Part shown: positions 16,054 to 30,078 of the stretch, one piece after another
Position numbering within the stretch: position 1 is the stretch's first letter
Layout: each line of letters begins with the position of its first letter
DNA from: an uncultured Clostridia bacterium
Lineage (GTDB): Bacteria; Bacillota; Clostridia; Oscillospirales; Ruminococcaceae
Direction of reading: 5' to 3'
DNA: 38,574 bases
Assembly (NCBI GenBank): GCA_947626755.1
Contig: CANQTP010000025.1
Coordinates: forward strand, 1 to 38,574
Made by a program: the position numbers and the translations under genes
The notes under the pieces: generated by a model
What the model was told of the DNA's origin: nothing
Database searches by the model: none
What the model saw: the letters and a program-made list of their open reading frames with translations, nothing else

Positions 16054-17142
16054 ATGGCTGATACAATGGTAAAGAAAAATCCTGTTTCCGACTTCCTTGC
16101 AAAGCATAAAGCCGAGAAGCCGCCCAAGGAACCAAAGATGTCCCGCAAGGAACGCAGAGAGCGTTTCAAAAAGAGAATGGAGTGCCTTTCTCCCGAGGAA
16201 CAGAGTTACCTCAGAAGAAAGCAGGTCATGGACGCTGTATGGCCCGTGTTCAGAGCTATAATAGTTTTCGGACTTTGCTTCATTATCCTTTATCCTCTGC
16301 TGTTCATGATCTCCGCGGCTGTACGTCCGAGATCGGACATGAACGACCCCACGGTAATGTGGATCCCGAAAACTTTCACAATGTCCAACATCAAGGACGC
16401 CATCAAGGCAATGGATTTCTGGCATACTCTCGGAAATACAATGGTGCTGAACATAGGCTGTTCGCTGATACAGGTAGTTACCTGTGCAATAACGGGATAC
16501 GGATTTGCGCGTTACAATTTCAAAGGCAAGAGCCTGTTCTTCTTCATAGTAATTATGATGATAATCGTACCTCCGCAGATCATACTTATCCCTCAGTATA
16601 TGTTCTTCCGTTACTTCAACCCGCTGGGAATTTACCATGCGATCACAGGAAATTACATCAACTTCATAAACACTGCTGTTACGATGTATCTTCCTGCGCT
16701 GACGGCAAACGGTCTAAGATCAGGTCTGTTCATATTCCTGTTCAGACAGTCCTTCCGCGGACTTCCTAAGGAACTTGAGGACGCCGCTGCACTGGACGGC
16801 TGCTCTCCTCTCACAACATTTGTAAGAGTAATGGTTCCTAACGCAGGTTCAACATTCCTGACAGTTTTCCTGTTCTCGATAGTATGGTACTGGAACGATT
16901 ACTATGTAAGTACATCGTTCTTCACCGAGAACAAGACAATTGCACTTATGCTGAAGAACCTTGACGGTAACCTGACAAGAATTATCTTCGGTAACGATGC
17001 AAGCGCGGTAAACGTCCGTGAGCTTATAGTATGGATGGAATCAGGCTGTCTGATCTCCATTCTGCCGATACTCATTCTGTACATCTGCTTGCAGAAGAAC
17101 TTCACAGAAGGTATTGCACGTTCCGGTCTCACCGGTATGTAA
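16054..17142 (+). CDS. Sugar ABC transporter permease, MalG-type (pair 2)
   Basis: Partner of the preceding permease; 362 residues, six helices, EAA loop at about residues 240-262 (LEDAAALDGCSPLTTFVRVMVP). As in the first MalG-type subunit, a long charged cytoplasmic N-terminus (about 65 residues, with SRKERRERFKKRMECLSPEE) precedes helix 1. The ATG at 16054 follows GGAGGG (16041-16046); an earlier ATG at 16030 lies inside the previous gene and has no binding site. Last gene of the operon. Confidence 0.92.
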   Translation: MADTMVKKNPVSDFLAKHKAEKPPKEPKMSRKERRERFKKRMECLSPEEQSYLRRKQVMDAVWPVFRAIIVFGLCFIILYPLLFMISAAVRPRSDMNDPTVMWIPKTFTMSNIKDAIKAMDFWHTLGNTMVLNIGCSLIQVVTCAITGYGFARYNFKGKSLFFFIVIMMIIVPPQIILIPQYMFFRYFNPLGIYHAITGNYINFINTAVTMYLPALTANGLRSGLFIFLFRQSFRGLPKELEDAAALDGCSPLTTFVRVMVPNAGSTFLTVFLFSIVWYWNDYYVSTSFFTENKTIALMLKNLDGNLTRIIFGNDASAVNVRELIVWMESGCLISILPILILYICLQKNFTEGIARSGLTGM

Positions 17143-17166
17143 GCGGGGGAGCCCCCGCGGGCTTAT
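17143..17166 (+). terminator. GC-rich hairpin at the end of the transport operon
   Basis: GCGGGGG and CCCCCGC arms (17143-17149 and 17152-17158) directly after the stop codon. The following GGGCTTATT is only weakly T-rich. The stronger terminator may be the central hairpin of the next repeat (17235-17270). Confidence 0.55.
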
Positions 17167-17167
17167 T

Positions 17168-17385
17168 CAGGCAAAGTTTTGTGATCCACTTCCTAAGTAT
17201 AATGTGTGGCAAAGCAAAGCACAATCTGAAAATAAAAAATCCCGTTCATGTTATAATGGACGGGATTTTTGTTTGTAGACTGCACTTTGTGTCATGCACG
17301 ATATACGTTAAGCGGAAAATCACAAAACTTTGCCTGTAAGGGTCAAGGCTACAGCCTTGCCTGAATGCGTGCAGACTCAGTCTGC
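17168..17385 (+). repeat. Composite palindromic repeat, copy A
   Basis: Core 17168-17336 (169 bp) has inverted ends CAGGCAAAGTTTTGTGAT (17168-17185) and its exact reverse complement (17319-17336). The arms remain partly complementary inward. The centre is a terminator-like hairpin: a 13-bp stem (17235-17247 with 17258-17270), a 10-base loop, then TTTG. To the right lie two short palindromes in tandem, CAAGGCTACAGCCTTG (17344-17359) and GCAGACTCAGTCTGC (17371-17385), separated by CCTGAATGCGT. It sits between the transport operon and the first Rpn gene. Three more full copies follow in the window. Confidence 0.9.
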
Positions 17386-17407
17386 CCCCGCCTTCGGCGG
17401 GGATTTT
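17386..17407 (+). terminator. GC-rich hairpin with T run before rpn gene 1
   Basis: CCCCGCC, TTC loop, GGCGGGG (17386-17402) followed by ATTTT. It abuts the right end of repeat copy A and isolates the Rpn promoter five bases further on. Confidence 0.65.
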
Positions 17408-17411
17408 GGTA

Positions 17412-17440
17412 TTGCAATTTTAATTTGAACGTGTTATAAT
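17412..17440 (+). promoter_or_regulatory. Promoter of rpn gene 1
   Basis: TTGCAA (17412-17417), 17 bases, TATAAT (17435-17440) with an extended TG. It is nearly identical over about 45 bases to the promoter of the second Rpn gene. Confidence 0.8.
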
Positions 17441-17463
17441 ATAATTGAAAAGAGGCGGTTTAA

Positions 17464-18306
17464 GTGGCAAAGGACGAAACAATGTTATCTCCGAAACTTG
17501 ACATAGTTTTCAAAATGCTTTTCGGAAACGAAAATAACAAGGATATTTTAAAAGCTTTTCTTTCGGATATGCTCGACATTCCCGAGGAGAAAATGCATAA
17601 TATACGCATAAAGAATCCCGAGATCGAGCCGACAAGTATCAATGAAAAATATTACAGGCTTGATCTGAATCTTGATATAGGCGATCAGCTTGTGAATATT
17701 GAAATGCAGGTGCGTGCGGAAAAATATTATCCCGACAGGACGCTTCTCTATTGGTCGAAACTCTATTCTTCGCAGCTTGAAGAGGGAGAACCGTATAGCA
17801 AGCTGTGTCCCTGCATATCAATAAATATATTGGATTTCGTACTTTTCGGGGAACATGAAGATGTTCACTCCGAATTTTCCGTGTGGGACGTTGAACACAA
17901 TAAAAAACTTTCCGACAAAATGCAGATACATTTCTTTGAATTGAAGAAGGTAAAAGATGGAATAGATAAGAACGACAGAAAAAACTTGTGGTTACAATTT
18001 ATCAGATCCACCAAGAAGGAGGAATTTGAGATGTTGAGAACAGCCGAAATGTCAGCGTTAGACAGAGCTATAGATGATCTTTATAATATGAATAATAATG
18101 AAAAATTAAAAGAGCTTGCCCGTATGCGTGAAAAAGCCATGCACGACAAAGCGTCCGAACTTGAGGAAGCTATTCAAACCGGCAGAGCAGAAGGCAGAGC
18201 AGAAGGCAGAGCAGAAAGAGATAACGAAATATCTGACAAAATGAAAGCGTTTGGTTTATCCGATGATGATATAAAGAAAATCTTTAATATAAAACCACGA
18301 AAATAG
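17464..18306 (+). CDS. Rpn family nuclease / PD-(D/E)XK 'transposase'
   Basis: A 280-residue member of the recombination-promoting nuclease family. These are PD-(D/E)XK enzymes linked to RecA-independent horizontal recombination in E. coli and often annotated as transposases. The opening MLSPKLDIVFKMLFGNENNK is typical. The catalytic core is intact: Asp67 (RLDLNL) and the EMQ triad side (Glu80, Gln82). The C-terminal tail has the family's GRAEGRAEGRAE repeat, encoded by three perfect 12-bp copies (18181-18216). GTG at 17464 is chosen because AGAGGCGG (17451-17458) precedes it closely. The gene is bracketed by repeat copy A upstream and a perfect palindrome that overlaps its stop codon downstream. 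Confidence 0.88.
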   Translation: MAKDETMLSPKLDIVFKMLFGNENNKDILKAFLSDMLDIPEEKMHNIRIKNPEIEPTSINEKYYRLDLNLDIGDQLVNIEMQVRAEKYYPDRTLLYWSKLYSSQLEEGEPYSKLCPCISINILDFVLFGEHEDVHSEFSVWDVEHNKKLSDKMQIHFFELKKVKDGIDKNDRKNLWLQFIRSTKKEEFEMLRTAEMSALDRAIDDLYNMNNNEKLKELARMREKAMHDKASELEEAIQTGRAEGRAEGRAERDNEISDKMKAFGLSDDDIKKIFNIKPRK

Positions 18307-18373
18307 AGTTGAGAGGCAGGCTTCAGCCTGCCTCTCAACTCTTTAATTACGCATTACGAATTAAGCATTAAGA
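18305..18373 (+). repeat. Solo repeat end: perfect palindrome plus 7-bp repeats
   Basis: An 18-bp perfect inverted repeat (18305-18322 with 18325-18342) built from the GAGTTGA heptamer on both sides of the GCAGGCT/AGCCTGC palindrome. It is followed by four units of a second heptamer family (ATTACGC, ATTACGA, ATTAAGC, ATTAAGA; 18346-18373). It overlaps the stop of rpn gene 1 and the last codons of the convergent gene. The long hairpin would also act as a bidirectional terminator. Confidence 0.85.
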
Positions 18374-19756
18374 ATTATCAGAGTAGGCAAGCCCCATTAT
18401 CAGCCAGAAAAACGGCGCAGCTGTGACGGCGCTTGCACTGAAAAATGCCTGTACCGCATATCCGAGTATCGCCGCAAACAATGCAAATACGTACCAATCG
18501 TCCGAGCCTTTCATTCTTTTGCACAGATGTACTATTGTCATTATAAGCAACGCAGCATATGCTATCAGTGACGGCAGACCGCGGGTCGCTGCCGTGTACA
18601 GATACTCGTTGTAACTCCTGTCAATGCTGTCTACCCGCAGTTCCTCACGCTCTAATTGGTAGGTTGCCATAAGATCGGGACCAACTCCCAGAATGGGTTC
18701 GTCCTTTATTATTTCAATGCTCCGTTCCGCACCAATTTCCCAGAGACTTTCTTCATTTATCGGTGACGGCGACGCTACAATGAAAAGCCTGTTGAATGCG
18801 TCCGTATATGCTATTGCTTTGTCCCGCAAATATATACCTTGAGTTAATGATACTATCCCGAATACTGCCAGTATAATCGAAACGACTATTCCCAAACGGC
18901 GCAGGGGAGTTTTCAATATTCCCTCGGTAAATTTAACGCTTTTGCGTTTTATTACGGTCAAAACAGTTATTATAATTATGTCCGCGCCTATGCCGATAAG
19001 CGGTATCACAGATGATGTGAAAAGTCCCGTCAGGAAGAATAATACCACTGCTGCACCGTAAAAACGTGCGGTCTTTGCATTTTTCTCCCAGACCGCTCCC
19101 GCAATTGCAATGCCGCTGACTATAGTCAGGAATGTTCCGTAAAATATGGGACTGTCAGATAATCCGCTTGCAAGATGTACGTTTTTTAACAGCAGTATGG
19201 ACGGAAGTTTCCTGAAATTTGACGGGAATCCCCAAGGAATGTGCTGCATTACCGCAAACGCAGCCTGAACTATTCCCGCGCCCATAAGCAGCATGAACAG
19301 TTTTTTCACCGTTTCCCGCTTTGTAACACAAGCGGCAAGCAGGAATATGCCGAAATACGCCAAAAGCGCAAGAAGCCCTTCATATCTGCCCGTTTCACCC
19401 AAAAGTGCCGTTGAGGTGTGGGCGGAATTGCCGTCCGTCAGCACAACTTTATAATAAGAAGCCGCCGCCAGCACCGCCAGTGCCGCTATCAGGAACGCAG
19501 CAGGCGTGTCTTTGAACTTTATATCCTTTCTTAACAGCAGGACGATATAGAAAAGTATGCAGGAAAATCCTGCCACATACAGGAACGATCCCATAAACGC
19601 GTTGGCTTTTTCTAAAAGTGTTATGACCATTCCGCCTATGAGCAGTATGATGATGCTGCCGTAAAGCAGACCGTTTTTCCATTTTTCCACGGTGGACTTA
19701 TTCATATTCAGTATGAAATTAGACTTTTCCGATGTTCCGAATATAGTCTTTGGCAT
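18368..19756 (-). CDS. O-antigen ligase / polymerase-like membrane protein
   Basis: A 462-residue polytopic membrane protein with about 11-12 hydrophobic helices. The C-terminal half fits the Wzy_C/O-antigen ligase family (PF04932), including the large outer loop with an SYNEYL motif near residue 385 (similar to the HNxYL region) and a final FFSASAVTAAPFFWLIMGL helix. In Gram-positives such proteins polymerise or attach surface polysaccharides. No sugar-transferase genes are nearby, so the pathway is unknown. GGAGG at 19764-19768 sets the ATG. It lies downstream of rny on the same strand, but a hairpin separates them. The last three codons and the stop come from the heptamer repeat tract, so the original C-terminus may have been altered. 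Confidence 0.83.
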   Translation of the reverse strand: MPKTIFGTSEKSNFILNMNKSTVEKWKNGLLYGSIIILLIGGMVITLLEKANAFMGSFLYVAGFSCILFYIVLLLRKDIKFKDTPAAFLIAALAVLAAASYYKVVLTDGNSAHTSTALLGETGRYEGLLALLAYFGIFLLAACVTKRETVKKLFMLLMGAGIVQAAFAVMQHIPWGFPSNFRKLPSILLLKNVHLASGLSDSPIFYGTFLTIVSGIAIAGAVWEKNAKTARFYGAAVVLFFLTGLFTSSVIPLIGIGADIIIITVLTVIKRKSVKFTEGILKTPLRRLGIVVSIILAVFGIVSLTQGIYLRDKAIAYTDAFNRLFIVASPSPINEESLWEIGAERSIEIIKDEPILGVGPDLMATYQLEREELRVDSIDRSYNEYLYTAATRGLPSLIAYAALLIMTIVHLCKRMKGSDDWYVFALFAAILGYAVQAFFSASAVTAAPFFWLIMGLAYSDNS

Positions 19757-19778
19757 TTTTTACCTCCAAAATAAAGAT

Positions 19779-19798
19779 CCCCGTGTGTGAACACGGGG
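19779..19798 (-). terminator. Hairpin between rny and the O-antigen-ligase-like gene
   Basis: CCCCGTGT and ACACGGGG arms (19779-19786 with 19791-19798). On the minus strand it is followed by ATCTTTATTTT, a loose T-rich stretch, so it probably ends or weakens rny transcription. Confidence 0.7.
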
Positions 19799-19816
19799 AA
19801 ATTTTTCGCAAGAGAA

Positions 19817-21376
19817 TTACTTGGCGTATTCCACCGCGCGGCTTTCTCTTATAAGATTTATCTTGATCTGTCCGGGGTAATCCATTTCATTTTCAATGCG
19901 CTGCGCGATCTCGCGGGCAACAATAGCCATTCTCTCGTCATTGATCTTTTCGGGGAGAACCATTATGCGGACTTCACGTCCCGCCTGAATGGCATATGAC
20001 TTTTCAACGCCTTCGTAGGACTCGCAAATTTCTTCAAGTTTCTGCAAACGCTTGATATAGTTTTCGTAATTTTCGCTTCTTGCGCCGGGTCTTGCCGCCG
20101 AGATAGCGTCCGCCGCCTGAACCAGTGAGGCAATGACCGTTTTCGGTTCAACATCGCCGTGGTGGGCTTCGATAGCGTGGATAACATCGGGATTTTCCTT
20201 GTATTTGCGGCAGACGTCAACGCCTATCTGAACGTGTGAACCTTCTATCTCGTAGCTGAGCGCCTTTCCTATATCGTGGAGAAGTCCCGCTCTGCGGGCA
20301 AGGTTCGCGTCAACGCCCAGTTCGGAAGCCATTATTCCCGCAAGGTGTGCAACTTCAATGGAATGTTTCAGCACGTTCTGGCGGTAAGATGTACGATAAT
20401 AGAGCCGTCCGATAAGGCGGACAAGTTCGTGGTTCAGACCGTGAACATTGGTTTCCAGAACGGCGCGTTCGCCCTCCTGCTTGATCTTGTGTTCAACTTC
20501 GCGGCGGGCTTTGTCGACCATTTCTTCAATGCGCGACGGGTGGATACGTCCGTCGGCAATAAGTTTTTCCAGAGCGATCCTTGCGACCTCGCGCCTTGCC
20601 TGATCGAAGCAGGAAAGGGTGATCGCTTCGGGGGTATCGTCTATAATGAGATCAACACCGGTAAGTGTTTCCAGAGTGCGGATATTCCGTCCTTCACGAC
20701 CGATGATACGACCCTTCATCTCATCATTCGGCAGGGGAACTACCGAAACAACGGTTTCGGAAACCTGATCCGCGGAGCATTTTGAAATTGCAAGGGAAAT
20801 AAGGTTACGAGCCTTTTCTTCGCACTCGTCCTTGAGCTGTGTCTCATACTGCTGGATCTTTACGGCTTTTTCGTGGACAAGCTCGCTTTCCAGCATGGAA
20901 AGCAGATGTTCCTTTGCCTGATCCATGGTAAACTGTGAAATTTTCTCCAGAATTTCCATCTGGGATTTTTTGATCTTCTCGGCATCTTCCAGTTTTTCGT
21001 CCACCTGTTTGAGCTTTTTCTGGAGCTGCTCCTCTTTCTTCTCGATGTTGTCGCTTTTCTTGTCGAGATTTTCTTCTTTTTGCTGGATACGTCTTTCCTG
21101 ACGGGACATATCGCTGCGGCGTTCCTTGATCTCCTTTTCCAGTTCGGAACGGCTCTTGTGTATCTCGTCCTTGGCTTCCACCAGCGCGATCTTCTTTTTG
21201 TTTTCGGCTTCTTTCTTGGCGTCTTCGATAATGCGCTCGGCTTCCTTTTCGGCGGAACCTATTGCGGATTCAGCCTGCTGCTTGCGGTAGTTTATTCCGA
21301 CTTTAAACAGGATAAATCCGGAAATTCCCGCGCCCACAACAAAAGCGATTATTCCGACTATGATCGTTGTGACCAA
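19817..21376 (-). CDS. rny: Ribonuclease Y
   Basis: Membrane-anchored endoribonuclease that starts mRNA decay in Firmicutes. The 519 residues match the family length. Order: N-terminal membrane helix (about 3-26), long charged coiled coil (about 30-190), KH RNA-binding domain with [15 protein letters not shown] (about 220-235), HD phosphodiesterase domain with [10 protein letters not shown] and LLHDIGKA (about 345-380), and the conserved C-terminal domain ending in [15 protein letters not shown]. The start is a TTG (21374-21376), with GGAGG at 21383-21387 and no alternative nearby. Transcription starts about 350 bases upstream, giving a long structured leader that might serve autoregulation. 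Confidence 0.97.
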
Positions 21377-21725
21377 TCTGTTTACCTCCTTTATAAGATA
21401 ATACTTCGGAGGCTCAAATATCTGATTTTCAATTTACAAATTCCGACGCTGCGCCGTATATTCCGAAAAATTCCATACAGCGGCGTGCAAAAGCCGTGAC
21501 CATTCCGGAAAGAATTGTCATGCGGCGGTATTGTTCCCATGACTGCGGGAACGATTTATCGGTATGCCTGCCCATCACTCGGGACGGGTAATATCTGCAC
21601 CTAATAAATAAAAATATATGAAAACCTTCTATTTCAGCCATAGAAGTAAGAAAAATATTGAACAGCAATCTATTCTTACGGCTCGGAAGAAATTTCCAAG
21701 CGCGATATTTATATATTGCATTCAT
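21377..21725 (-). other. Long structured leader of rny mRNA
   Basis: About 350 bases between the rny promoter and start with no convincing gene. Read on the minus strand it contains several local hairpins: a 7-bp CTTGGAA/TTCCGAG stem, CTTCTAT/ATAGAAG, CCCGTC/GATGGG and GTTCCC/GGGAAC, with repeated TCGGAAT motifs towards the end. A 98-codon open frame crosses it but lacks a ribosome binding site. I do not recognise a known riboswitch. Confidence 0.5.
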
Positions 21726-21731
21726 TCTTTT

Positions 21732-21760
21732 ATTTTAATACAGATCCTTTCAAATGTCAA
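21732..21760 (-). promoter_or_regulatory. Promoter of rny
   Basis: On the minus strand: TTGACA (21760-21755), 17 bases, TAAAAT (21737-21732). It diverges from the thrS T-box promoter about 65 bases away. Confidence 0.7.
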
Positions 21761-21824
21761 GGAAAATTATACAATTTGACACTTTTAAATAATAAATCCC
21801 CCTTTTATATGTGAAAAAAGACGA

Positions 21825-21853
21825 TTGACAAAAAATTTTTTTCGTGCTATATT
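21825..21853 (+). promoter_or_regulatory. Promoter of the T-box / thrS transcript
   Basis: TTGACA (21825-21830), 17-base spacer, TATATT (21848-21853), shortly before the T-box leader. Confidence 0.8.
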
Positions 21854-21869
21854 TAATATGTATCAAATC

Positions 21870-22136
21870 ATGAAAACGTTGATAAGGAAGGCATTATACA
21901 GGGTAAAAGCCCGAAAAACGGTTCACAGAGAGTTCCCCGTAAGCTGTGAGGGGAGCGTTCCGCAGTATCATGCACACCGCCTTTGAGTCCGTCCAATAAA
22001 CGGCGTCTCGCTCCCGTTACCGAGCGCAAAAGATGTATACGCAAAGCTATAAATTTTGCAAAATTTACAAAGCGTATATAAACTTGGGTGGAACCGCGAG
22101 TAAATTCGTCCCTTGATAGAAATATCAGGGGACTTT
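21870..22136 (+). promoter_or_regulatory. Threonine T-box leader with terminator
   Basis: A tRNA-sensing leader that lets transcription continue when uncharged tRNA-Thr binds. The T-box signature GGGTGGAACCGCG is at 22086-22098. The terminator hairpin is 22108-22118 with 22123-22133, then a T run. In stem I, CATTATAC (21892-21899) can pair with GTATCATG (21965-21972), and AAGGC (21888-21892) with GCCTT (21979-21983). The bases left unpaired between them are CACACC, containing the threonine codon ACC (21976-21978) followed by G, as expected for a specifier. It controls the transglutaminase gene and thrS downstream. Confidence 0.93.
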
Positions 22137-22155
22137 TTATTTGTATAGATTTTTG

Positions 22156-22184
22156 GAAATAATACTATTTGTAAAGGGGCAATT
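22156..22184 (+). repeat. Direct repeat, left copy (flanks transglutaminase gene)
   Basis: A 29-base segment beginning GAAATAATACTAT and containing the ribosome binding site. It matches 23338-23366 with three mismatches. Confidence 0.8.
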
Positions 22185-22186
22185 TT

Positions 22187-23344
22187 ATGTTCAAAAAATT
22201 TATTTCTGTGATCCTCTGTATAATTGCAGCAATTACGGTAACTCCGACTTACATGGGAAATGCTGCCGTTTACAGCGTATCAGCCGCAAGCACTTCGGAC
22301 TATCCTTATTTTTATGTGCAGCTGTCTGCAAATGGGCAGAAAGCCTACCAATTGATCCGTCAGGATATTATTGATCATAAGAATAAGACAGATATAAACT
22401 TTGACTTGAGTGAAGAAGATGCGAATAAGATCACAGAATTGCTATTCGATCATGATCCGCTTACATTTAATATTAAAAGTTCATCATGGTGCAGTGTAAA
22501 CGGAAAAATCACGTATTTTGAATATGAATTCAATACAAGCAAAAAAGAGTACGATAAAATGTTGTCTGCCTGTGATGAGGAAGCAGATAATATCATTGAA
22601 AAAGTCAAAGATGAAAAAAGCACTTATAAAAAGCTCCGTATAATTCATGACGAGCTTGTAAAATTAATTGATTACAATGATAGAACAAAGTACAGCAATG
22701 ATCTTTATGGCGCGTTGGCAAAGAAACAAGCCGCCTGCGAAGGATATTCAAAGGCATTCAGCTATATATGCGCAAAGATCGGCATAAAGTCTGCGAATGT
22801 CAGCGGAATGACAAGTGAGGACAGCAATTACGGACATATGTGGAACAAAGTATACTATAACAAAAAATGGTATAATATAGACGTTACATGGGACGACCCG
22901 GTTTACGAAAAAAGCGACCTCAGTGATTATGAAAAATCATTGATAGAGCATATCTTTTTTATGGTGAGCGATGAATATATAGGCAGCACTCATTTTGAAT
23001 ATGAAGCCAACACAGAAGATAATCTTTTCAAATATCCGGCTGCAAATGACAACTCAATAACATACTACAAAGTAAACAAAAAATATGCCGACAGCCTTGA
23101 AAGTGCTAAAAATATCATCAAAAAAGGAGCCGCTTCCGCAAAAGGTGATACATACAGTATAAACTTTCAATGTTCTTCCGAAAAGGTACTTGATGAAACT
23201 TTGGATTTCATTAAAAGCGATTTGCAGAAATACCTCAAACGTATAAGAAAAAAAGGAAAATCAATAGATTATTCCGCAAAATCATATAACTATAGCAAAA
23301 AAGACCTGACCATAACCATTTTCATTGAAAAAAACAAGAAATAA
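22187..23344 (+). CDS. Secreted transglutaminase-like protein
   Basis: A 385-residue exported protein with a signal peptide (1-34) and a transglutaminase-like (papain-fold) core. The full catalytic triad is visible: Cys184 in AACEGYSKAF, His217 in YGHMWNKV and Asp232 in YNIDVTWDDP. In bacteria such domains act as proteases, cross-linkers or amidases on the cell surface; the target is unknown. The C-terminal 120 residues are Lys-rich with no recognised domain. The gene is clearly more AT-rich than thrS and rny and uses AAA/GAT/ATA codons heavily, which suggests it was acquired. It sits between the Thr T-box terminator and thrS, flanked by 29-base direct repeats, so threonine starvation should raise its expression. 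AAAGGGG precedes the ATG. Confidence 0.87.
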   Translation: MFKKFISVILCIIAAITVTPTYMGNAAVYSVSAASTSDYPYFYVQLSANGQKAYQLIRQDIIDHKNKTDINFDLSEEDANKITELLFDHDPLTFNIKSSSWCSVNGKITYFEYEFNTSKKEYDKMLSACDEEADNIIEKVKDEKSTYKKLRIIHDELVKLIDYNDRTKYSNDLYGALAKKQAACEGYSKAFSYICAKIGIKSANVSGMTSEDSNYGHMWNKVYYNKKWYNIDVTWDDPVYEKSDLSDYEKSLIEHIFFMVSDEYIGSTHFEYEANTEDNLFKYPAANDNSITYYKVNKKYADSLESAKNIIKKGAASAKGDTYSINFQCSSEKVLDETLDFIKSDLQKYLKRIRKKGKSIDYSAKSYNYSKKDLTITIFIEKNKK

Positions 23345-23366
23345 TACTATATGTAAAGGAGAAATT
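23338..23366 (+). repeat. Direct repeat, right copy (flanks transglutaminase gene)
   Basis: It covers the stop codon of the transglutaminase gene and the ribosome binding site of thrS. It matches 22156-22184 with three mismatches, as expected if the gene arrived through a duplication of the thrS untranslated region. Confidence 0.8.
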
Positions 23367-23369
23367 ATC

Positions 23370-25319
23370 ATGATCAAGCTTACTCTTAAAGACGGCTCTG
23401 TCCGTGAAATTGAAAGCTCCATGCCCGCCACAGAGGTGGTAAAGGGCATAGGAGCGGGGCTTTACAAAGCCGCCTGCTGCGTGAAGATCGACGGTACAGT
23501 GAAAGATCTGCGCACAGTCATCGACAAGGACTGCACCTTTGAAGTTATGACATTCGATTCCGAGGAGGGCAAAAAGACTTTCCGACACACCGCGTCACAC
23601 ATTCTTGCGCAGGCGGTGAAAAGGCTTTACCCTGACGTTAAACTTGCGATAGGTCCTGCTATTGACGATGGTTTCTACTATGATTTTGATACGGAAAAGG
23701 CATTCACCGCCGAGGATCTTGCCGCCCTCGAAGCTGAAATGAAGAAGATCGTCAAGGAAGGCATCGACATTGAACAGTATTACCTTTCCCCCGATGAAGC
23801 GATCTCCATGCTGAAAAAGATGGACGAACCCTACAAAGTGGAGCTTTGCGGCGAACACGCAGGCAAGGGCGAAGATATAAGCTTCTACAAGCAGGGAGAT
23901 TTTACCGACCTTTGCGCAGGTCCGCACCTTATGAATACTTCCGCTGTAAAGGCATTCAAGCTTACAGCCTGCACCGGCGCATACTGGCGCGGCGACGCCA
24001 AGGGCAAACAGCTTTCCAGAATTTATGGAACGGCGTTCCCCAAGGCAAGCGAACTTGAAGCACATCTCGCCGCCGTTGAAGAAGCCAAGAAGCGGGATCA
24101 CAACAAGCTGGGACGTGAACTGGAATATTTTACGACTGTCGACTATATCGGACAGGGACTGCCTATACTTCTGCCCAAGGGCGCAAAAGTTATCCAGATA
24201 CTTCAGCGCTGGGTTGAAGATCTGGAAGATTCAAAAGGCTACGTCCGCACCAAAACGCCGTACATGGCAAAGCGGGAACTGTACAAAATTTCGGGACACT
24301 GGGATCACTATCTTGACGGAATGTTCATTCTCGGCGACCCCAACGACGAAACCAAGGAATGTTTCGCGCTCCGCCCCATGACCTGTCCGTTCCAGTATCA
24401 GGTGTTCCTGAACAGGGCGCGTTCCTACAGGGATCTGCCTATGCGTCTGGGTGAAACTTCCACGCTTTTTCGCAACGAGGACAGCGGCGAAATGCACGGA
24501 CTTATCCGCGTGCGCCAGTTCACAATTTCCGAAGGACATCTTATTCTCCGTCCCGAACAGCTTGAGGAAGAGTTCCGCGGCTGTCTGGAACTTGCAAAAT
24601 ACTGTCTTGACACTGTAGGGCTTCTTGACAAATGCACATTCCGTTTCTCCCAGTGGGATCCTGCAAATCCCAAGAACAAGTACGAGGGCACTGCCGAACA
24701 GTGGGAAGAAGCGCAGGCTGTCATGAAAAAGATCCTCGATCACATCGGTCTGGAATATACTATCGGTATAGACGAAGCTGCATTCTACGGACCGAAATTG
24801 GATATTCAGTACAAGAATGTATACGGCAAGGAGGACACTCTTGTAACCATTCAGATAGATATGCTGCTTGCCCAGAGATTCGGCATGGAGTACACCGATG
24901 TAGACGGAAAGAAGAAAAATCCGTATATCATTCACAGAACGTCTCTCGGCTGTTATGAACGTACTCTTGCATATCTTATTGAAACTTACGCAGGCGCGCT
25001 TCCGCTTTGGCTTTCGCCCGAGCAGGTGCGTATACTTCCTGTTACGGACAGGGCGGCGGATTACTGTCAGACGGTCTATGATAAGCTGAACAAGCGGGGA
25101 ATACGCTGCACCATCGATTCCCGAAAAGAAGGAGTCGGCTACAAGATCCGTCAGGCGCAGCTTGAAAAGATACCCTACTTCTTCATAGTCGGCGACAAGG
25201 AAGCCGAGAGCGGAACGCTTTCCCTGCGTTCGCGCAAGGACGGCGACCTCGGTGCAATGCCCATGGACGATGTTCTTAATAAGATCTTTGAGGAAAACGA
25301 CTCCAAGGCTAAGTTCTAA
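23370..25319 (+). CDS. thrS: Threonyl-tRNA synthetase
   Basis: Charges tRNA-Thr in the cytoplasm. The 649 residues carry the usual order: TGS domain (1-60), the editing/SAD domain with the HTASHILAQAV zinc-type motif near residues 71-81, the class II catalytic core (about 245-540) with motif 2 FRNEDSGEMHGLIRVRQF and motif 3 HRTSLGCYERTLAYL, and the anticodon-binding domain (about 545-640). The start follows AAAGGAG at 23355-23361; a longer frame from 23325 overlaps the previous gene. It is controlled by the Thr T-box about 1.2 kb upstream and closed by a perfect 17-bp terminator. Confidence 0.97.
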   Translation: MIKLTLKDGSVREIESSMPATEVVKGIGAGLYKAACCVKIDGTVKDLRTVIDKDCTFEVMTFDSEEGKKTFRHTASHILAQAVKRLYPDVKLAIGPAIDDGFYYDFDTEKAFTAEDLAALEAEMKKIVKEGIDIEQYYLSPDEAISMLKKMDEPYKVELCGEHAGKGEDISFYKQGDFTDLCAGPHLMNTSAVKAFKLTACTGAYWRGDAKGKQLSRIYGTAFPKASELEAHLAAVEEAKKRDHNKLGRELEYFTTVDYIGQGLPILLPKGAKVIQILQRWVEDLEDSKGYVRTKTPYMAKRELYKISGHWDHYLDGMFILGDPNDETKECFALRPMTCPFQYQVFLNRARSYRDLPMRLGETSTLFRNEDSGEMHGLIRVRQFTISEGHLILRPEQLEEEFRGCLELAKYCLDTVGLLDKCTFRFSQWDPANPKNKYEGTAEQWEEAQAVMKKILDHIGLEYTIGIDEAAFYGPKLDIQYKNVYGKEDTLVTIQIDMLLAQRFGMEYTDVDGKKKNPYIIHRTSLGCYERTLAYLIETYAGALPLWLSPEQVRILPVTDRAADYCQTVYDKLNKRGIRCTIDSRKEGVGYKIRQAQLEKIPYFFIVGDKEAESGTLSLRSRKDGDLGAMPMDDVLNKIFEENDSKAKF

Positions 25320-25320
25320 T

Positions 25321-25377
25321 GCGTAATTACAGAGTTGAGAGTTGAGAGTTAAGAGTTGAGAGGCAGACTGAGTCTGC
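25321..25377 (+). repeat. Solo left end of the composite palindromic repeat
   Basis: It begins right after the thrS stop with GCGTAATTAC (the second heptamer family in reverse), then GAGTTGA, GAGTTGA, GAGTTAA, GAGTTGA (25332-25359), then the short palindrome GCAGACTGAGTCTGC (25363-25377) and ACGCAT. The unit order is identical to the left end of copy D. No core follows; the thrS terminator comes next. Confidence 0.85.
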
Positions 25378-25385
25378 ACGCATGA

Positions 25386-25423
25386 TTTTTGAAAAAACCG
25401 CCGAAAGGCGGTTTTTTCAAAAA
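25386..25423 (+). terminator. Strong bidirectional terminator after thrS
   Basis: A 17-bp perfect stem (25386-25402 with 25407-25423) with a GAAA tetraloop and A/T tracts built into both arms. Confidence 0.93.
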
Positions 25424-25431
25424 TGTATCTA

Positions 25432-25460
25432 TTGCAATTTTTTGTTGAGCGTGTTATAAT
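25432..25460 (+). promoter_or_regulatory. Promoter of rpn gene 2
   Basis: TTGCAA (25432-25437), 17 bases, TATAAT (25455-25460), extended -10. It is near-identical to the rpn gene 1 promoter. Confidence 0.8.
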
Positions 25461-25492
25461 ATAATTGAAGAATTGTAAAGGAGTATGCCGTT

Positions 25493-26477
25493 ATGTCAGA
25501 GTCTAATCAGGAATATTTTATGATGTCGCCGAAAGTGGATTTCGCTTTCAAAGAAATAATGCATAATGATAAAGTCCGGAAAGGCTTTTTAAGTGCGGTT
25601 TTAAATATCCCTGTGGACGACATAAAGAAAACTGTTCTTAAAAACGCAAATCTTCCCAAGAACCACGAGGACACAAAACCAAGGCTGAGCCTTGACGCCT
25701 ACAGGCTTTACTTTGTGATTTCTTGCCTAAGTATAATGTGCATTAAGTAAAGCTGAATTTACATAAAAACTTCCGCCTATACAGGCGGAAAATTTTGTAA
25801 ATCCAACTTTACATCATGCACGGTATACGTTAAGTTGAAAATCACTAAAATTTGCCTGAAAGCGTGCAGGCTCAGCCTGCTGGGCGGAACGAAGCGCGTT
25901 CTACGTTTCCAAAATGCTTGTGGATCAGACCAATATAGACAAGATATACTCAAACTTTAAAAAATGCATTGGAATAAACATTTTAGACTTCAAATATGTT
26001 AAGGAAACAGAACGTTTCCACACAATTTATCACATCAGAGAAGACAGTGAAAATATTTGCTATACAGACATAATGGAATGGCACTTGATAGAATTGCCCA
26101 AACTTCCAAAAACCGAGGACGGCACCGTCCTGTATGATTGGATAAGATTTCTGAAAGCAGAGAAAAAGGAGGAATTCGACATGGCAGCAAGCAGCAATGA
26201 ATATATCCGAGAAGCGGTCGACACGCTTGAAGTTATCAGTCAGGACGAACAGAAACGCTTGGAATACAATGCCCGCCAGAAGGCACTTTGGGATTATAAT
26301 ACCTTAATGGCAGAAAATTACATCAAAGGGAAAGCAGAGGGCAAGGCGGAAGGCGAAGCAATGGGAATTGCCAAAGGCAGAGCAGAGGGCGAAGCAAGGG
26401 GCATTGCTAAGCTGCTCGCAAGAATGGCGGCAGATGGTGTACCGGAAGAAATCATAAGGAAATATATGCAGAGTTGA
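25493..26477 (+). pseudogene. Rpn family nuclease gene, broken by a palindromic element
   Basis: The first part (25493-25678) encodes a normal Rpn N-terminus (MMSPKVDFAFKEIM to KNHEDTK). The second part resumes exactly at 25881 with the conserved WAERSAFYVSKM segment and runs to TGA 26475-26477, including the GKAEGKAEGEA tail. Between them lies repeat copy B. Compared with rpn gene 1, about 24 residues are missing at the junction, including the Asp and Glu-x-Gln catalytic residues, so the insertion replaced about 75 bp. The two halves are also out of frame. AAAGGAG (25477-25483) and the promoter remain intact. The stop codon lies inside a GAGTTGA heptamer of repeat copy C. Confidence 0.9.
25680..25880 (+). 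repeat. Composite palindromic repeat, copy B (inside rpn gene 2)
   Basis: Left short palindrome CAAGGCTGAGCCTTG (25680-25694); core 25702-25858 with inverted ends CAGGCTTTACTTTGTGAT and ATCACTAAAATTTGCCTG; central hairpin TTCCGCCT/AGGCGGAA (25771-25790); right short palindrome GCAGGCTCAGCCTGC (25866-25880). It has no heptamer tracts, and its edges coincide with the break in the Rpn coding sequence. This gives the clearest view of the mobile unit's limits. Confidence 0.9.
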
Positions 26478-26728
26478 AAGTTGAGAGTTGAGAGCAAGGC
26501 TGTAGCCTTGACCCATGCAGGCAAAGTTTTGTGATTTCTAACTTAACGTATACCGTGCATGACATAAAGCGCGGTCTGTAAACATAATTCCCGTCCGGTT
26601 CAAAATGAATTGGGCGGGAATTTTTGTAGATTTAACTTTACTTTATCTCACGGCAGGCAATAATTTGAAAATCACAAAACAAATCCTGAAAGCGTCAAGG
26701 CTACAGCCTTGCTCTTAACTCTTAACTC
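26471..26728 (+). repeat. Composite palindromic repeat, copy C (complete, both heptamer ends)
   Basis: Read left to right: GAGTTGA, AAGTTGA, GAGTTGA (26471-26491); palindrome CAAGGCTGTAGCCTTG (26495-26510); core 26518-26688 with ends CAGGCAAAGTTTTGTGAT and ATCACAAAACAAATCCTG; central hairpin with an 11-bp stem (26586-26596 with 26612-26622) and a T run; palindrome CAAGGCTACAGCCTTG (26696-26711); then TTAACTC twice in the opposite orientation (26715-26728). The whole unit is one large inverted repeat. A partial extra palindrome follows at 26734-26749. Confidence 0.9.
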
Positions 26729-26751
26729 TACGGCAAGGCTACAGCCTGCTC

Positions 26752-26780
26752 TTGAAATTTTATCGAAAAAAGTGTATTAT
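26752..26780 (+). promoter_or_regulatory. Promoter of the AraC-type regulator
   Basis: TTGAAA (26752-26757), 17 bases, TATTAT (26775-26780), immediately right of repeat copy C. A TATAAT three bases further gives a less likely 20-base spacer. Confidence 0.6.
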
Positions 26781-26816
26781 AATATGTGAAGCATAAAAAG
26801 TAAAGGGAGGATCTTT

Positions 26817-27569
26817 ATGTCCGGATCGGGAAAAGCACTTACATATAAAGCTTTTATGAACAGAGAGTATTCCTTTAAACATTCACCTTTTGAACAGGAG
26901 TTCGAGTTCTACGACTGCGTTAAAGCAGGCGATGAAGAATCCGTTAAAAAGCATATGACGCCGCTGGGCGGCAGCGGCTCGGGAACGCTTTCCGACGATC
27001 CGCTGCGGAACCTGAAATATCACTTCGTTATTACAATTGCCATGCTGACACGGTTCTGCGTGGAAGGCGGCATGGAAATGGAGACCGCCTATACTCTCAG
27101 CGACCTCTATATTTTAAAAGCAGATAAATGCAGCACTGCCGACGAAGTCCACAATATCCACTATGAAGCGGTAATGGACTATACAAAACGCATGAAGCGC
27201 GCTGCCCGCGGGAATATCTATTCAAAACCCGTTATAATGACTATGGACTATATCTATGATAATCTCCACTCGCAGATCTCTGTCGAGGATATTGCAGATG
27301 AGGTGGGACTCAGCCCGTCCTACCTGTCGCGGCTTTTTCATAAGGAAGTGGGGGTAACTATCAGCACATATATTGCCGTGAAACGCATCGAAACTGCACA
27401 GAATATGCTGAAATACTCCGACTATTCCGCTATGGATATTGGAAATTACCTTGCATTTACCACACACAGCCACTTTATCAGCACTTTTAAAAAGTACACG
27501 GGCATGACTCCCGGAGAATTCCGCAAAAAATATTATCGCTCCAACTGGGGAGATAAATCAAAATCGTAA
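26817..27569 (+). CDS. AraC family transcriptional regulator
   Basis: A 250-residue DNA-binding regulator. The C-terminal 100 residues hold the two helix-turn-helix units of the AraC family (ISVEDIADEVGLSPSYLSRLF near 154-174, and the second ending in FKKYTGMTPGEFRKKY near 222-237). The N-terminal part is all-alpha and resembles the four-helix sensor found in Firmicutes AraC proteins rather than a cupin sugar pocket. GGGAGG (26805-26810) sets the ATG. It precedes the licheninase gene in the same direction by 81 bases and is a plausible regulator of it, though the target is not proven. Confidence 0.9.
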   Translation: MSGSGKALTYKAFMNREYSFKHSPFEQEFEFYDCVKAGDEESVKKHMTPLGGSGSGTLSDDPLRNLKYHFVITIAMLTRFCVEGGMEMETAYTLSDLYILKADKCSTADEVHNIHYEAVMDYTKRMKRAARGNIYSKPVIMTMDYIYDNLHSQISVEDIADEVGLSPSYLSRLFHKEVGVTISTYIAVKRIETAQNMLKYSDYSAMDIGNYLAFTTHSHFISTFKKYTGMTPGEFRKKYYRSNWGDKSKS

Positions 27570-27591
27570 TATAAATGTCAAAATATTTGTA

Positions 27592-27619
27592 TTTACTTTT
27601 TGGAAAACCGTGGTATAAT
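27592..27619 (+). promoter_or_regulatory. Promoter of the licheninase gene
   Basis: TTTACT (27592-27597), 16 bases, TATAAT (27614-27619) with an extended TG. The weak -35 fits a promoter that needs an activator such as the AraC protein next door. Confidence 0.6.
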
Positions 27620-27650
27620 TTCATTAATGAAAAATTTCGGAGGAGAGCAT

Positions 27651-28409
27651 ATGAAAAACATATTTTTGAAAACTATCGCCGCGGCGGTTTCCTGTATGAT
27701 GATATTCTGTTCCTGTCAGGGCGGGAGCACTTCGGGAAACACCGGAACGGGCGAGGGAACTTTTAAGGCGGAACTTAAAGACGGCGGTCCCGAATGGTTT
27801 GAAATTTCCGACGGCTGGACAAACGGAAGTATGTTCAATGTCACATGGCGGGCTGCGAACTGCACATTTGAAAACGATCATATGCAGCTTAAGATCGACA
27901 GGGACACCGATACTTCCAAGGGAATACCATATTCCGGCGCGGAGTACCGTTCAAAGAATTTCTACAGCTACGGACGTTATGAGGTTTCCATGAAAGCCAT
28001 CAAGAATGACGGCGTTGTTTCCTCGTTCTTCACCTACACAGGACCTTCCGACAATAATCCTTGGGACGAAATTGACGTGGAGATCCTCGGCAAGGACACC
28101 ACAAAAGTGCAGTTCAACTATTTCACCAACGGTGTGGGAAATCACGAGTATCTGTACGATCTGGGATTTGACGCGTCGGAAGGATTCCACACATACGCTT
28201 TTGAATGGTATGCGGATAAGATAGTATGGTATGTTGACGGCGTTGAAGCTTACACCGCCACCGAAAATATCCCGTCCACACCCGGAAAGATCATGATGAA
28301 CGCATGGTGCGGAACAGGCGTTGACAGCTGGCTGAACGCATTTGACGACACGAATCTTCCCCTTACCGCGGAATATGACCGGGTCTCATACAGCGAATTT
28401 GAAGAATAA
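27651..28409 (+). CDS. Licheninase, endo-beta-1,3-1,4-glucanase (GH16)
   Basis: Cleaves mixed-linkage beta-glucans (EC 3.2.1.73) from cereals. The 252 residues end in a complete GH16 jelly-roll domain. The catalytic signature [10 protein letters not shown] (138-147) supplies nucleophile Glu140, Asp142 and acid/base Glu144, and is followed by the [14 protein letters not shown] block shared with the Bacillus enzyme. The N-terminus has a hydrophobic signal and Cys22 (FCSC, an imperfect lipobox), so it is probably a lipoprotein at the cell surface. No dockerin is attached. GGAGGAG at 27639-27645 sets the ATG. It has its own promoter and terminator, downstream of an AraC regulator. Confidence 0.95.
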
Positions 28410-28413
28410 GAAG

Positions 28414-28447
28414 TTCCCCCTTGCCGAAGCGTAAGGGGGAATTTTTT
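28414..28447 (+). terminator. Rho-independent terminator after the licheninase gene
   Basis: TTCCCCCTT and AAGGGGGAA arms (28414-28422 with 28433-28441), followed by TTTTTT. Confidence 0.93.
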
Positions 28448-28487
28448 GACAAGTGCAGGGTTTCCGAACAAAATCGGGAAAAAACTC

Positions 28488-28516
28488 TTGCAAATTCTTC
28501 CGTTTTGTGTTATCAT
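28488..28516 (+). promoter_or_regulatory. Promoter of the CNNM/CorC-type gene
   Basis: TTGCAA (28488-28493), 17 bases, TATCAT (28511-28516) with an extended TG, the same design as the secG and Rpn promoters. Confidence 0.65.
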
Positions 28517-28553
28517 ATTAAATCATACACTTTAAAACGAAAGGCAAGGTCAT

Positions 28554-29792
28554 ATGGGTTATATAATCGCGCTTATATTTTTAATAGCGATGTCGGCGGT
28601 GTTTTCGTCCATGGAAACGGCGTTCTCATCGGTAAATAAAATACGTCTCAAGCATGAAGCTTCAAACGGCAACAAAAAAGCCGAACGCGCTCTGCAAATT
28701 GCTGAAAATTTCGACAAAACTCTTACAACTATCCTTATCGGGAACAATATAGTAAATATCCTGTCCTCATCTCTGGGAACGGTGTTTTTTGTGAACCTGT
28801 TCGGCACGGCGGGCGTGGCTGTTTCCACGGTGGTAATGACCATACTTGTGCTTATTTTCGGAGAGATCATGCCCAAGACTTTCGCAAAGCAGAACGCAGA
28901 CAGGTGCGCTCTTGCATTTGCCGCGCCACTTGGCGCGATAATGTGGATTTTAACGCCGATCTCCGCAATTTTTTCGCTTATTCAGAAAGGTATGCTGAAA
29001 GCTGTAAGGTCGGATGATTCCCCCAACTTCACCGAGGACGAACTGAAATACATCATTGAGGAAATTGAAGATCAGGGCGTTCTTGAAGAACAGGAAAGCG
29101 ATCTTGTACGTTCCGCGCTGGAATTTGACGATATAATCATCGAGCAGATACTTGTTCCCAGAGTAAAAGTTGTAGCCGTGGAGCGGAACGAGGAAATTGA
29201 AAAGATCAAGGAAATATTTATCCGCGACAGATACACCCGTCTGCCCGTTTATGAGGATTCCATCGACAACATTATCGGGCTTATAAACGAAAAGGACTTT
29301 TTCGCGCTTCTCCTCGGATCGGAAGGAAAGCCTGTCAGCATTGAAGGTATTATTCAGAAAGCACTGTACGTTTCGGAAATGAAGCTCATTTCCGAAGTGC
29401 TTTATGAAATGCAGCACACCAAGATCCATATGGCGATAGTAAAGGATCAGTACGGCGGAACAAGCGGCATCGTCACCATGGAAGATATTATCGAGGAGCT
29501 TGTAGGCGAAATTTATGATGAAAACGATGAAGTTATCCACAATGTGGTAAAAGTTGCGGAAAACACATATGATGTCCGCGCGGACATAAGCATTTCCGAT
29601 ATGCTGGAAGAAATGGAGCTTCCCGCCGATCTTATCGAGACGGAAAGCAACACTGTCGGCGGTTGGGTGATGGAACTTTTCGGCTGCATTCCCCAAGCGG
29701 GGGCGGTCATTGAAAGCGGGATATTCACCGTCAGTGTACTGGAAGCGGACGAACAATCGGTTTCAAAAGTAAGCATCAAATATAATGAGTGA
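28554..29792 (+). CDS. CNNM/CorC (HlyC) family transporter-like protein
   Basis: A 412-residue membrane protein. The CNNM domain (DUF21, about 1-180) has four hydrophobic segments and the conserved SSMETAFSSVNK start and VLIFGEIMPKTFAK motif. A CBS pair follows (about 200-320, with VPRVKVVAVERN and GIVTMEDIIEELVGEI), then a CorC_HlyC domain (about 335-412). The family exports Mg2+ or is needed for Mg2+ resistance; the name 'hemolysin' is historical. ATG 28554 follows AAAGG at 28540-28544, a modest site. Repeat copy D begins five bases after the stop. Confidence 0.93.
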   Translation: MGYIIALIFLIAMSAVFSSMETAFSSVNKIRLKHEASNGNKKAERALQIAENFDKTLTTILIGNNIVNILSSSLGTVFFVNLFGTAGVAVSTVVMTILVLIFGEIMPKTFAKQNADRCALAFAAPLGAIMWILTPISAIFSLIQKGMLKAVRSDDSPNFTEDELKYIIEEIEDQGVLEEQESDLVRSALEFDDIIIEQILVPRVKVVAVERNEEIEKIKEIFIRDRYTRLPVYEDSIDNIIGLINEKDFFALLLGSEGKPVSIEGIIQKALYVSEMKLISEVLYEMQHTKIHMAIVKDQYGGTSGIVTMEDIIEELVGEIYDENDEVIHNVVKVAENTYDVRADISISDMLEEMELPADLIETESNTVGGWVMELFGCIPQAGAVIESGIFTVSVLEADEQSVSKVSIKYNE

Positions 29793-29797
29793 TTAAA

Positions 29798-30038
29798 GAG
29801 TTGAGAGTTGAGAGTTAAGAGTTGAGGCAGACTGAGTCTGCACGCATTCAGGGTTTGTTTTGTGATTTCAAACCTAACGTATACCGTGCATTAAGTAAAA
29901 TTAAATCTGCAAACAAAAATCACTGTCCATATAATATGAACGGGAAATTTCATTTTCGGATTCAGCTTTGCTTCATGCACGGCAGGCACACGCAGAGGAC
30001 AGCAAAACTTTGCCTGTAGGCGTGCAGGCTCAGCCTGC
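29798..30038 (+). repeat. Composite palindromic repeat, copy D
   Basis: GAGTTGA, GAGTTGA, GAGTTAA, GAGTTGA (29798-29825); palindrome GCAGACTGAGTCTGC (29827-29841); ACGCATT; core 29849-30016 with left end CAGGGTTTGTTTTGTGAT and right end matching the other copies through GCAAAACTTTGCCTG; right palindrome GCAGGCTCAGCCTGC (30024-30038). The central hairpin is degenerate here, so this copy is probably the oldest or no longer under selection. It lies between the CorC-type gene and the DUF815 gene, away from Rpn genes. Confidence 0.88.
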
Positions 30039-30039
30039 C

Positions 30040-30045
30040 TATAAT
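30040..30045 (+). promoter_or_regulatory. Possible -10 element for the DUF815 gene at the edge of repeat copy D
   Basis: TATAAT begins two bases after the last palindrome of copy D and 39 bases before the start codon. No good -35 is visible at 16-18 bases, where copy D's end now lies. The original -35 may have been displaced by the insertion. Confidence 0.35.
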
Positions 30046-30078
30046 ATATTCATATTTTATAAGAAGAGAGATGTTCAT

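Follow-up and report, generated by a model that had tools for sequence, protein, structure and literature searches.

Are the palindromic repeats that stand beside rpn genes moved by the Rpn proteins, or are the rpn genes cargo among the repeats? This question is raised by a 38,574-nucleotide stretch of DNA from an uncultured Clostridia bacterium (GenBank contig CANQTP010000025.1; here called the window), which is contig C25 of the draft genome G000 (3.31 Mb, 198 contigs). The window holds two rpn genes (rpn1 and rpn2) and four copies (A to D) of an inverted repeat, and an original prediction had proposed that Rpn proteins move or recognize these palindromes or that the repeats prefer rpn loci as targets. 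We find that the repeats belong to a high-copy family of one lineage, that they are enriched at one group of rpn genes, and that some units present in one species are absent from its sister, with boundaries in repeat modules. What is new here is this repeat frame around rpn genes in one lineage, which is shared with unrelated toxin-antitoxin (TA) genes.

A half-element family and its association with rpn genes

The four inverted-repeat copies were recovered at the places described for them (Table 1), and their end motif, CAGGCAAAGTTTTGTGAT (≤3 mismatches), matched the window five times against a shuffle mean of 0.07, with 0 of 100 shuffles reaching five. Copy A does stand upstream of rpn1, a solo palindrome does overlap the rpn1 stop codon, and a solo end precedes rpn2. 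Copy B does lie inside rpn2, a gene now broken in two (open reading frame [ORF] 25493-25750, with no Pfam family at E ≤ 0.001, and ORF 25914-26477, PF12784, 84 bits). The 157- to 171-bp inverted-repeat core attributed to these copies is genuine, but its structure had been understated: the ends continue outward through a small palindrome to a half-element of 86 positions. Parts of the copies recur exactly, since the solo end at 17360-17386 is the exact inverse of the left end of copy D (29826-29852), and the solo end at 25362-25383 is the exact inverse of 17365-17386. Folding of copy A (17144-17386) as single-stranded DNA gave a z score of −8.3. No Rfam-type RNA family matched window positions 16900-30200 at the gathering score, no plasmid matched positions 17160-17390, one strict pattern for the elements gave 0 viral matches, and CAAGGNNNNCTTGACG had 0 matches in the window.

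The half-element is the unit of the family, and its 86 model positions are conserved across 58 aligned copies. It consists of a small outer palindrome, the stem of which differs among copies (e.g., GCAGGCTGAGCCTGC or CAAGGCTGAGCCTTG), followed by a conserved arm, CAGG....TTTTGTGATTT....TATACCGTGCAT. A full element is two facing halves around a terminator-like hairpin, and tandem halves are also found. RNAalifold yielded no pairs on the 58-copy alignment, and the search model was therefore sequence-only. With this model, at least 144 half-elements were found in G000 (E ≤ 0.001), in 97 clusters, and at least 149 in G018, a sister species of the same genus (E ≤ 1e-5); both are lower bounds, as the best 150 of 1,384 candidates were scored in G000 and the best 150 of 1,293 in G018. 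Facing pairs of halves less than 100 bp apart numbered 19 in each genome. A survey of 61 genomes, with 73 candidates per genome scored and stricter filters, gave matches in 7, all of one genus: G000, G018, G006 (10), G015 (5), G005 (3), G019 (2), and G014 (1).

The position of the half-elements relative to rpn genes was then assessed across G000. PF12784 matches numbered 39, and the distance count used 14 intact and 6 broken genes of clades 1 and 2 (set by start sequence and score, without a tree), 6 divergent genes, and 10 weak matches, with 3 solo tails excluded. A half-element lay within 500 bp of 10 of the 14 intact and all 6 broken clade-1/2 genes (16 of 20 together), compared with 2 of 52 ATP-binding cassette (ABC) genes (53 before two adjacent pieces on C98 were merged), 4 of 38 HTH_3 genes, 1 of 6 divergent rpn genes, and 0 of 10 weak matches. 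Fisher's test for the 16 of 20 gave 1.6e-10 against ABC and 2e-7 against HTH_3, the paralogs being related and the events not fully independent. Three of the four intact clade-1/2 genes without a near element lie close to a contig end. Genome-wide enrichment at rpn genes was the test that the original prediction had set for itself, and this test did not refute it.

The association is weaker elsewhere. In G018, 4 of 10 clade-1/2 genes lay within 500 bp of a half-element by a local scan and 3 of 10 by the genome-wide list (for the latter, binomial 0.022 at a background of 0.064). The same rpn clades have multiplied in G006, where only 1 of 9 clade-1/2 loci lies within 500 bp of an element, and the sole clade-1/2 gene of G005 has no element nearby; the local scan took in all 20 loci of these three genomes. 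Elements are also carried by G014, G015, and G019, genomes with no PF12784 match at E ≤ 1e-15 (completeness of 96, 82, and 86%, respectively). The tie between elements and rpn is genuine, yet it is neither necessary nor exclusive, because of the 1 of 9 loci in G006 and because 76 of the 97 clusters in G000 are not within 500 bp of a clade-1/2 rpn gene.

Elements also lie inside rpn genes, in both clades and in both species, and the breaks begin within a few base pairs of the same gene position. Interrupted clade-2 genes are found in the window, on C4, and on G018 C10 and C23; interrupted clade-1 genes are found on C6 and on G018 C109. At copy B, the gap between the two parts of rpn2 is 201 to 209 bp, compared with 80 to 88 bp in four intact G018 paralogs, and by our reading the segment lost from rpn2 is the one expected to carry the D...ExQ active-site residues. 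In the two interrupted clade-2 genes of G018, no 3' part was found next to the element. Some intact clade-2 genes have CAAGG....CTTGACG at the break position, resembling the element end CAAGGCTGAGCCTTGACG, while others have CAGGG. The common position suggests microhomology- or palindrome-guided insertion, although copies may share descent.

The rpn genes themselves have a PDDEXK_2 domain and a variable repeat tail, with a probable internal start read from the sequence. By analogy with PMC10327210, rpn1 probably contains a start for the internal antitoxin RpnS near position 18031, and the 3' part of rpn2 probably keeps one near 26181. The rpn1 promoter block is 90% alike in rpn2, and at other rpn copies the repeat mosaics stop directly 5' of this block. 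Many rpn genes are followed by tandem copies of the C-terminal tail with an apparent ribosome site and ATG of their own (L034, L038, L041, and L043 in G000; L053, L056, L058, and L059 in G018; L064, L065, L068, and L072 in G006 and G005). These copies, which are present also at rpn loci without repeats, are probably solo RpnS antitoxin genes. Three rpn loci in G000 and one in G006 stand beside flagellin-like 3' ends (L033, two loci of L044, and L069; one flagellin was scanned against Pfam), possibly a shared hot spot.

Toxin-antitoxin units between half-elements

Taking neighboring half-elements 200 to 2,500 bp apart as borders gave 20 intervals in G000 and 13 in G018. TA genes, candidates, or pieces were present in 22 of these 33 intervals (12 of 20 in G000 and 10 of 13 in G018). 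Ten intervals hold rpn or rpn pieces (two of them pieces of one C4 gene), and 12 of the 23 rpn-free intervals hold another TA candidate. Type II pairs occupy five intervals: a YafQ toxin and a small partner without a Pfam match on C1; a RelE/HigB-type toxin and a helix-turn-helix (HTH) antitoxin on C32, with 59-nt exact inverted flanks; a Gp49/HigB-type toxin and an HTH antitoxin on G018 C36; and RelB-YoeB on G018 C15 and C9, the two being 99.7% identical over 970 bp. One interval holds a RelB-like gene (21.5 bits; Pfam cut-off, 22.4), and six hold candidate type I peptides of 27 to 28 residues. In six cargo loci, Rfam gave only a tRNA and matches under the gathering score.

A control at the gene level used called genes of ≤140 amino acids, with rpn tails excluded from both sides. 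A type II TA family or antitoxin-like HTH was matched by 8 of 18 short interval genes (one of the 8 a RelB match just below the Pfam cut-off), compared with 1 (MazE) of 150 short genes sampled from 303 outside intervals, at control loci taken near elements or rpn. With near-duplicate loci left out, 6 of 16 interval genes matched (Fisher, 2e-6). The whole interval gene set comprised 37 called and 5 hand-added genes. The control set also has an uncounted nucleotidyltransferase (Polbeta, NTP_transf_2), possibly a TA partner; one VapB match listed for these 150 genes may belong to the MazE protein. The original prediction that the repeats prefer rpn loci is partly supported, by an enrichment in G000 and, more weakly, in G018. 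It is better restated: TA units, rpn included, often lie between repeat modules.

Corresponding sites of G000 and G018 were compared, with alignments of <120 bp or <74% discarded. On C75, a half-element directly follows the stop codon of a flagellin (by Pfam) in both species; in G000 it is followed by a terminator-like hairpin, then by an rpn gene, and then by two halves in inverted orientation, whereas G018 has only the hairpin and a palindrome remnant (1,165 bp versus 6 bp; flanks 93 and 89% identical). A broken rpn unit with elements on C6 of G000 is missing from G018; its flanks are 92 and 94% identical between the two, and the 232 bp immediately to the left form a stretch of 84% identity. 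This unit stands between two 46-nt copies, with one mismatch, of TTGAGAGCCAAGATATAAGCG... (L052:3032-3077 and 4088-4133), of which G018 has one. At the site of copy D, a RelB-like gene lies between two halves in G018, and an empty element follows the same gene in G000; in G006, the flanks of which are on two contigs, no half-element was seen beside either flank. Two further units next to elements in G000 are absent in G018, a small ORF on C36 and, on C7, a gene that matches Metallophos_2 weakly (21.4 bits; cut-off, 27). Conversely, the full element at G018 C54 is missing from its G000 site on C51, where another repeat stands. Of the 22 TA units, 6 are spanned by exact direct repeats of ≥20 nt, compared with 6 of 393 control genes. 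We considered whether direct repeats mark cassette exchange in general and rejected this; at 6 of 22 units, they are not a rule. No target-site duplication was noted by eye in seven comparisons of G000 and G018 sites, which are too altered for a firm reading.

TABLE 1 Positions of rpn genes, element copies, and related features in the window
Feature	Position	Strand	Remark
Copy A, full element	17144..17360	.	Half-element +, core terminator-like hairpin, half-element −
Extra solo end (palindrome) between copy A and rpn1 promoter	17355..17386	−	Weak model match, 21 bits
rpn1 promoter block (TATTGCA ... TATAATATAATTGA)	17409..17450	+	Promoter read from sequence
rpn1, intact PF12784 (PDDEXK_2) gene, clade 1	17464..18306	+	Full domain, 182 bits
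Solo palindrome overlapping rpn1 stop codon	18305..18342	.	
AGAGTTGAG-type repeat and solo element end, after thrS, before rpn2	25317..25383	+	
rpn2 5' part, clade 2	25493..25680	+	
Copy B, element within rpn2	25678..25882	.	Replaces ~88 bp of intact gene
rpn2 3' part	25883..26477	+	
Copy C, full element starting just past rpn2 stop codon	26494..26712	.	
Copy D, full element	29825..30040	.	G018 counterpart after same gene: RelB-like gene between halves

Several additional features were noted. Repeats of two other kinds (runs of AGAGTTGAGAG and runs of AATTCGTAATGCG) interleave with elements at many of the loci read, and in the window at 25317-25376, 18332-18363, and 26479-26729. Homologous ORFs of 48 to 50 residues lie between half-elements in both species (L138:2049-2201 and L103:11842-11988), their last codons and stop apparently supplied by the element palindrome. 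The HigBA-type pair of C32 recurs in G005 (L147; 81% identical), but its frame there is another GC-rich palindrome, GCGCCGCCCGTGGGGCGGCGC with TTGTCAAATAAAA; this palindrome recurs three times and has gene units between its copies. In the window, the junctions at 17142-18368 and 29784-30063 both resemble synteny breakpoints: the genes flanking the former are on different contigs in G018 and G006 and are separated by at least ~13 kb in certain other relatives, and those flanking the latter are on different contigs in G006. A transglutaminase-domain gene (22187-23344) upstream of thrS stands between 29-bp direct repeats (22156-22184 and 23338-23366; 90% alike) and is absent from the orthologous site in G018, G006, and G014.

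Possible explanations of the association

We favor, with modest confidence, the explanation that the half-elements are a lineage-specific repeat population without a known transposase, similar to REPINs (doublets of repetitive extragenic palindromes [REPs]) and bacterial interspersed mosaic elements (BIMEs) or to miniature inverted-repeat transposable elements (MITEs), and that TA units are gained and lost within it. The repeat modules would supply homology or hairpin ends for the insertion, exchange, and loss of short promoter-to-stop TA units, and such units, being self-contained and costly to lose, may persist at the repeats. Rpn proteins would be cargo and not movers, and upstream modules may also insulate the toxins. 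A possible but doubtful elaboration is a transposase-less cassette system in one Clostridia clade, where palindromes would serve as docking sites and carriers for unrelated TA modules (Rpn, YoeB, YafQ, HigB-type, and candidate type I) that are inserted, swapped, and lost; addictive cargo would aid the persistence of the repeats, and the repeats would spread the cargo.

A number of observations weigh against the gain and loss of TA units at the repeats. Besides the 76 clusters distant from clade-1/2 rpn, 11 of the 33 intervals contain other genes or nothing: the non-TA contents are FeoB, AzlCD, prepilins, SPFH/NfeD, a sigma factor and serpin, flavin reductase, phage-like genes, two of the 48- to 50-residue ORFs, or nothing recognized. 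The interval tally of TA genes stands without a genome-wide TA background. The type I calls are small hydrophobic peptides without Pfam or Rfam family support; the candidate at C112 is the end of a longer open frame, and two candidates lie between halves in tandem orientation, so that framing is not always inverted. Eight of the 22 TA units are not spanned by any exact direct repeat of ≥10 nt, and only at C6 does a direct repeat have a single copy at the site of the other species. Both G000 and G018 are fragmented drafts with several rpn genes at contig ends, and two genomes cannot separate gain from loss.

One alternative is passive co-location, in which repeats and TA or rpn genes independently reach the same permissive, nonessential intergenic spots and breakpoints of rearrangement. 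In its favor, elements stand somewhat closer to HTH_3 genes than to ABC genes, the two sides of rpn1 are on separate contigs in G018, each beside an element (likely a synteny breakpoint), and FeoB, AzlCD, prepilins, and serpin are also found between halves. We nevertheless judge co-location alone to be unlikely, given the TA bias among short interval genes (8 of 18 versus 1 of 150) and the presence/absence boundaries that fall in repeat modules. Another alternative is insulation, with the elements retained as terminators beside toxic genes to stop read-through. Judging from sequence, the cores and many modules at rpn promoters resemble terminator hairpins with T-runs, placed directly before the −35 or after the stop; where the nearest module upstream of an rpn gene (≤500 bp) is a solo or tandem half, this half has its inner end toward the gene (6 of 6 in G000 and 3 of 3 in G018), and two more G000 loci have a full element as that module. 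As the principal explanation, insulation is quite improbable: it leaves unexplained the elements inside rpn genes, the many elements at other genes, and the bare rpn loci of G006.

The proposal that Rpn mobilizes or recognizes the palindromes, as REP-associated tyrosine transposases (RAYTs) do REPs, is very improbable. It would fit the strong adjacency in G000, the coincidence of most elements and most rpn genes in G000 and G018, and the lack of an intact Y1 transposase gene in G000 (PF01797, E ≤ 0.01), where the one broken locus is on C119, a contig with none of the listed half-elements. However, clade-1/2 genes multiplied in G006 with few elements, the one in G005 has none, three relatives carry elements without a detected rpn gene, and the same repeats frame unrelated TA genes. 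Furthermore, PMC10327210 argues for Rpn proteins as toxins and considers a transposase role highly unlikely. Movement by Rpn was therefore rejected as unsupported, and we return to a repeat population in which TA units come and go. Such a lineage gives a testable account of the spread of TA genes and of the persistence of REP-like palindromes without a known transposase, and concrete sites with and without cargo are available for tests.

Comparison with known systems

REPINs and BIMEs are short, high-copy, lineage-specific palindromes, often arranged as inverted pairs, with tandem and mosaic forms and a RAYT transposase of the Y1/HUH type (PMC3733652). The elements described here share the high copy number, the lineage specificity, the short palindromes in frequent inverted pairs, and the tandem and mosaic forms. 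They differ in that no RAYT was found in G000, the palindrome in the consensus of the 58 halves does not end in a GTAG tetranucleotide, the unit is larger, with 86 positions and a core hairpin, and the framed genes are TA-biased, with no transposase among them in the cases seen. MITEs and mobile insertion cassettes, as generally described, have in common with these elements inverted ends, a short empty form, and longer passenger forms without a transposase. Here, no parent transposase was seen, no systematic search for a parent element having been made, nor was a target-site duplication noted by eye; the arms vary and are often in tandem, and the passengers are TA-biased. Integron cassettes, again as generally described, are likewise compact units, often TA, beside palindromic sites, whereas the units here seem to retain promoters of their own and are dispersed, not arrayed.

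Searches of the open-access PMC literature turned up no account of rpn or TA genes framed by repeats. CGTC-type REPs, including Rickettsia palindromic elements, are apparently without a dedicated transposase (PMC3733652), and the elements described here are similar to them in this respect, by description and not by sequence. The rpn genes have been named transposases, yet Zhong et al. (PMC10327210) report them as TA systems without identifiable inverted repeats or transposon ends and with small downstream homologs in some cases. The genes described here resemble those systems in having a tail of four-residue repeats, a probable internal start for RpnS, and small tail genes downstream; they differ in that a repeat family closely frames one of the rpn groups.

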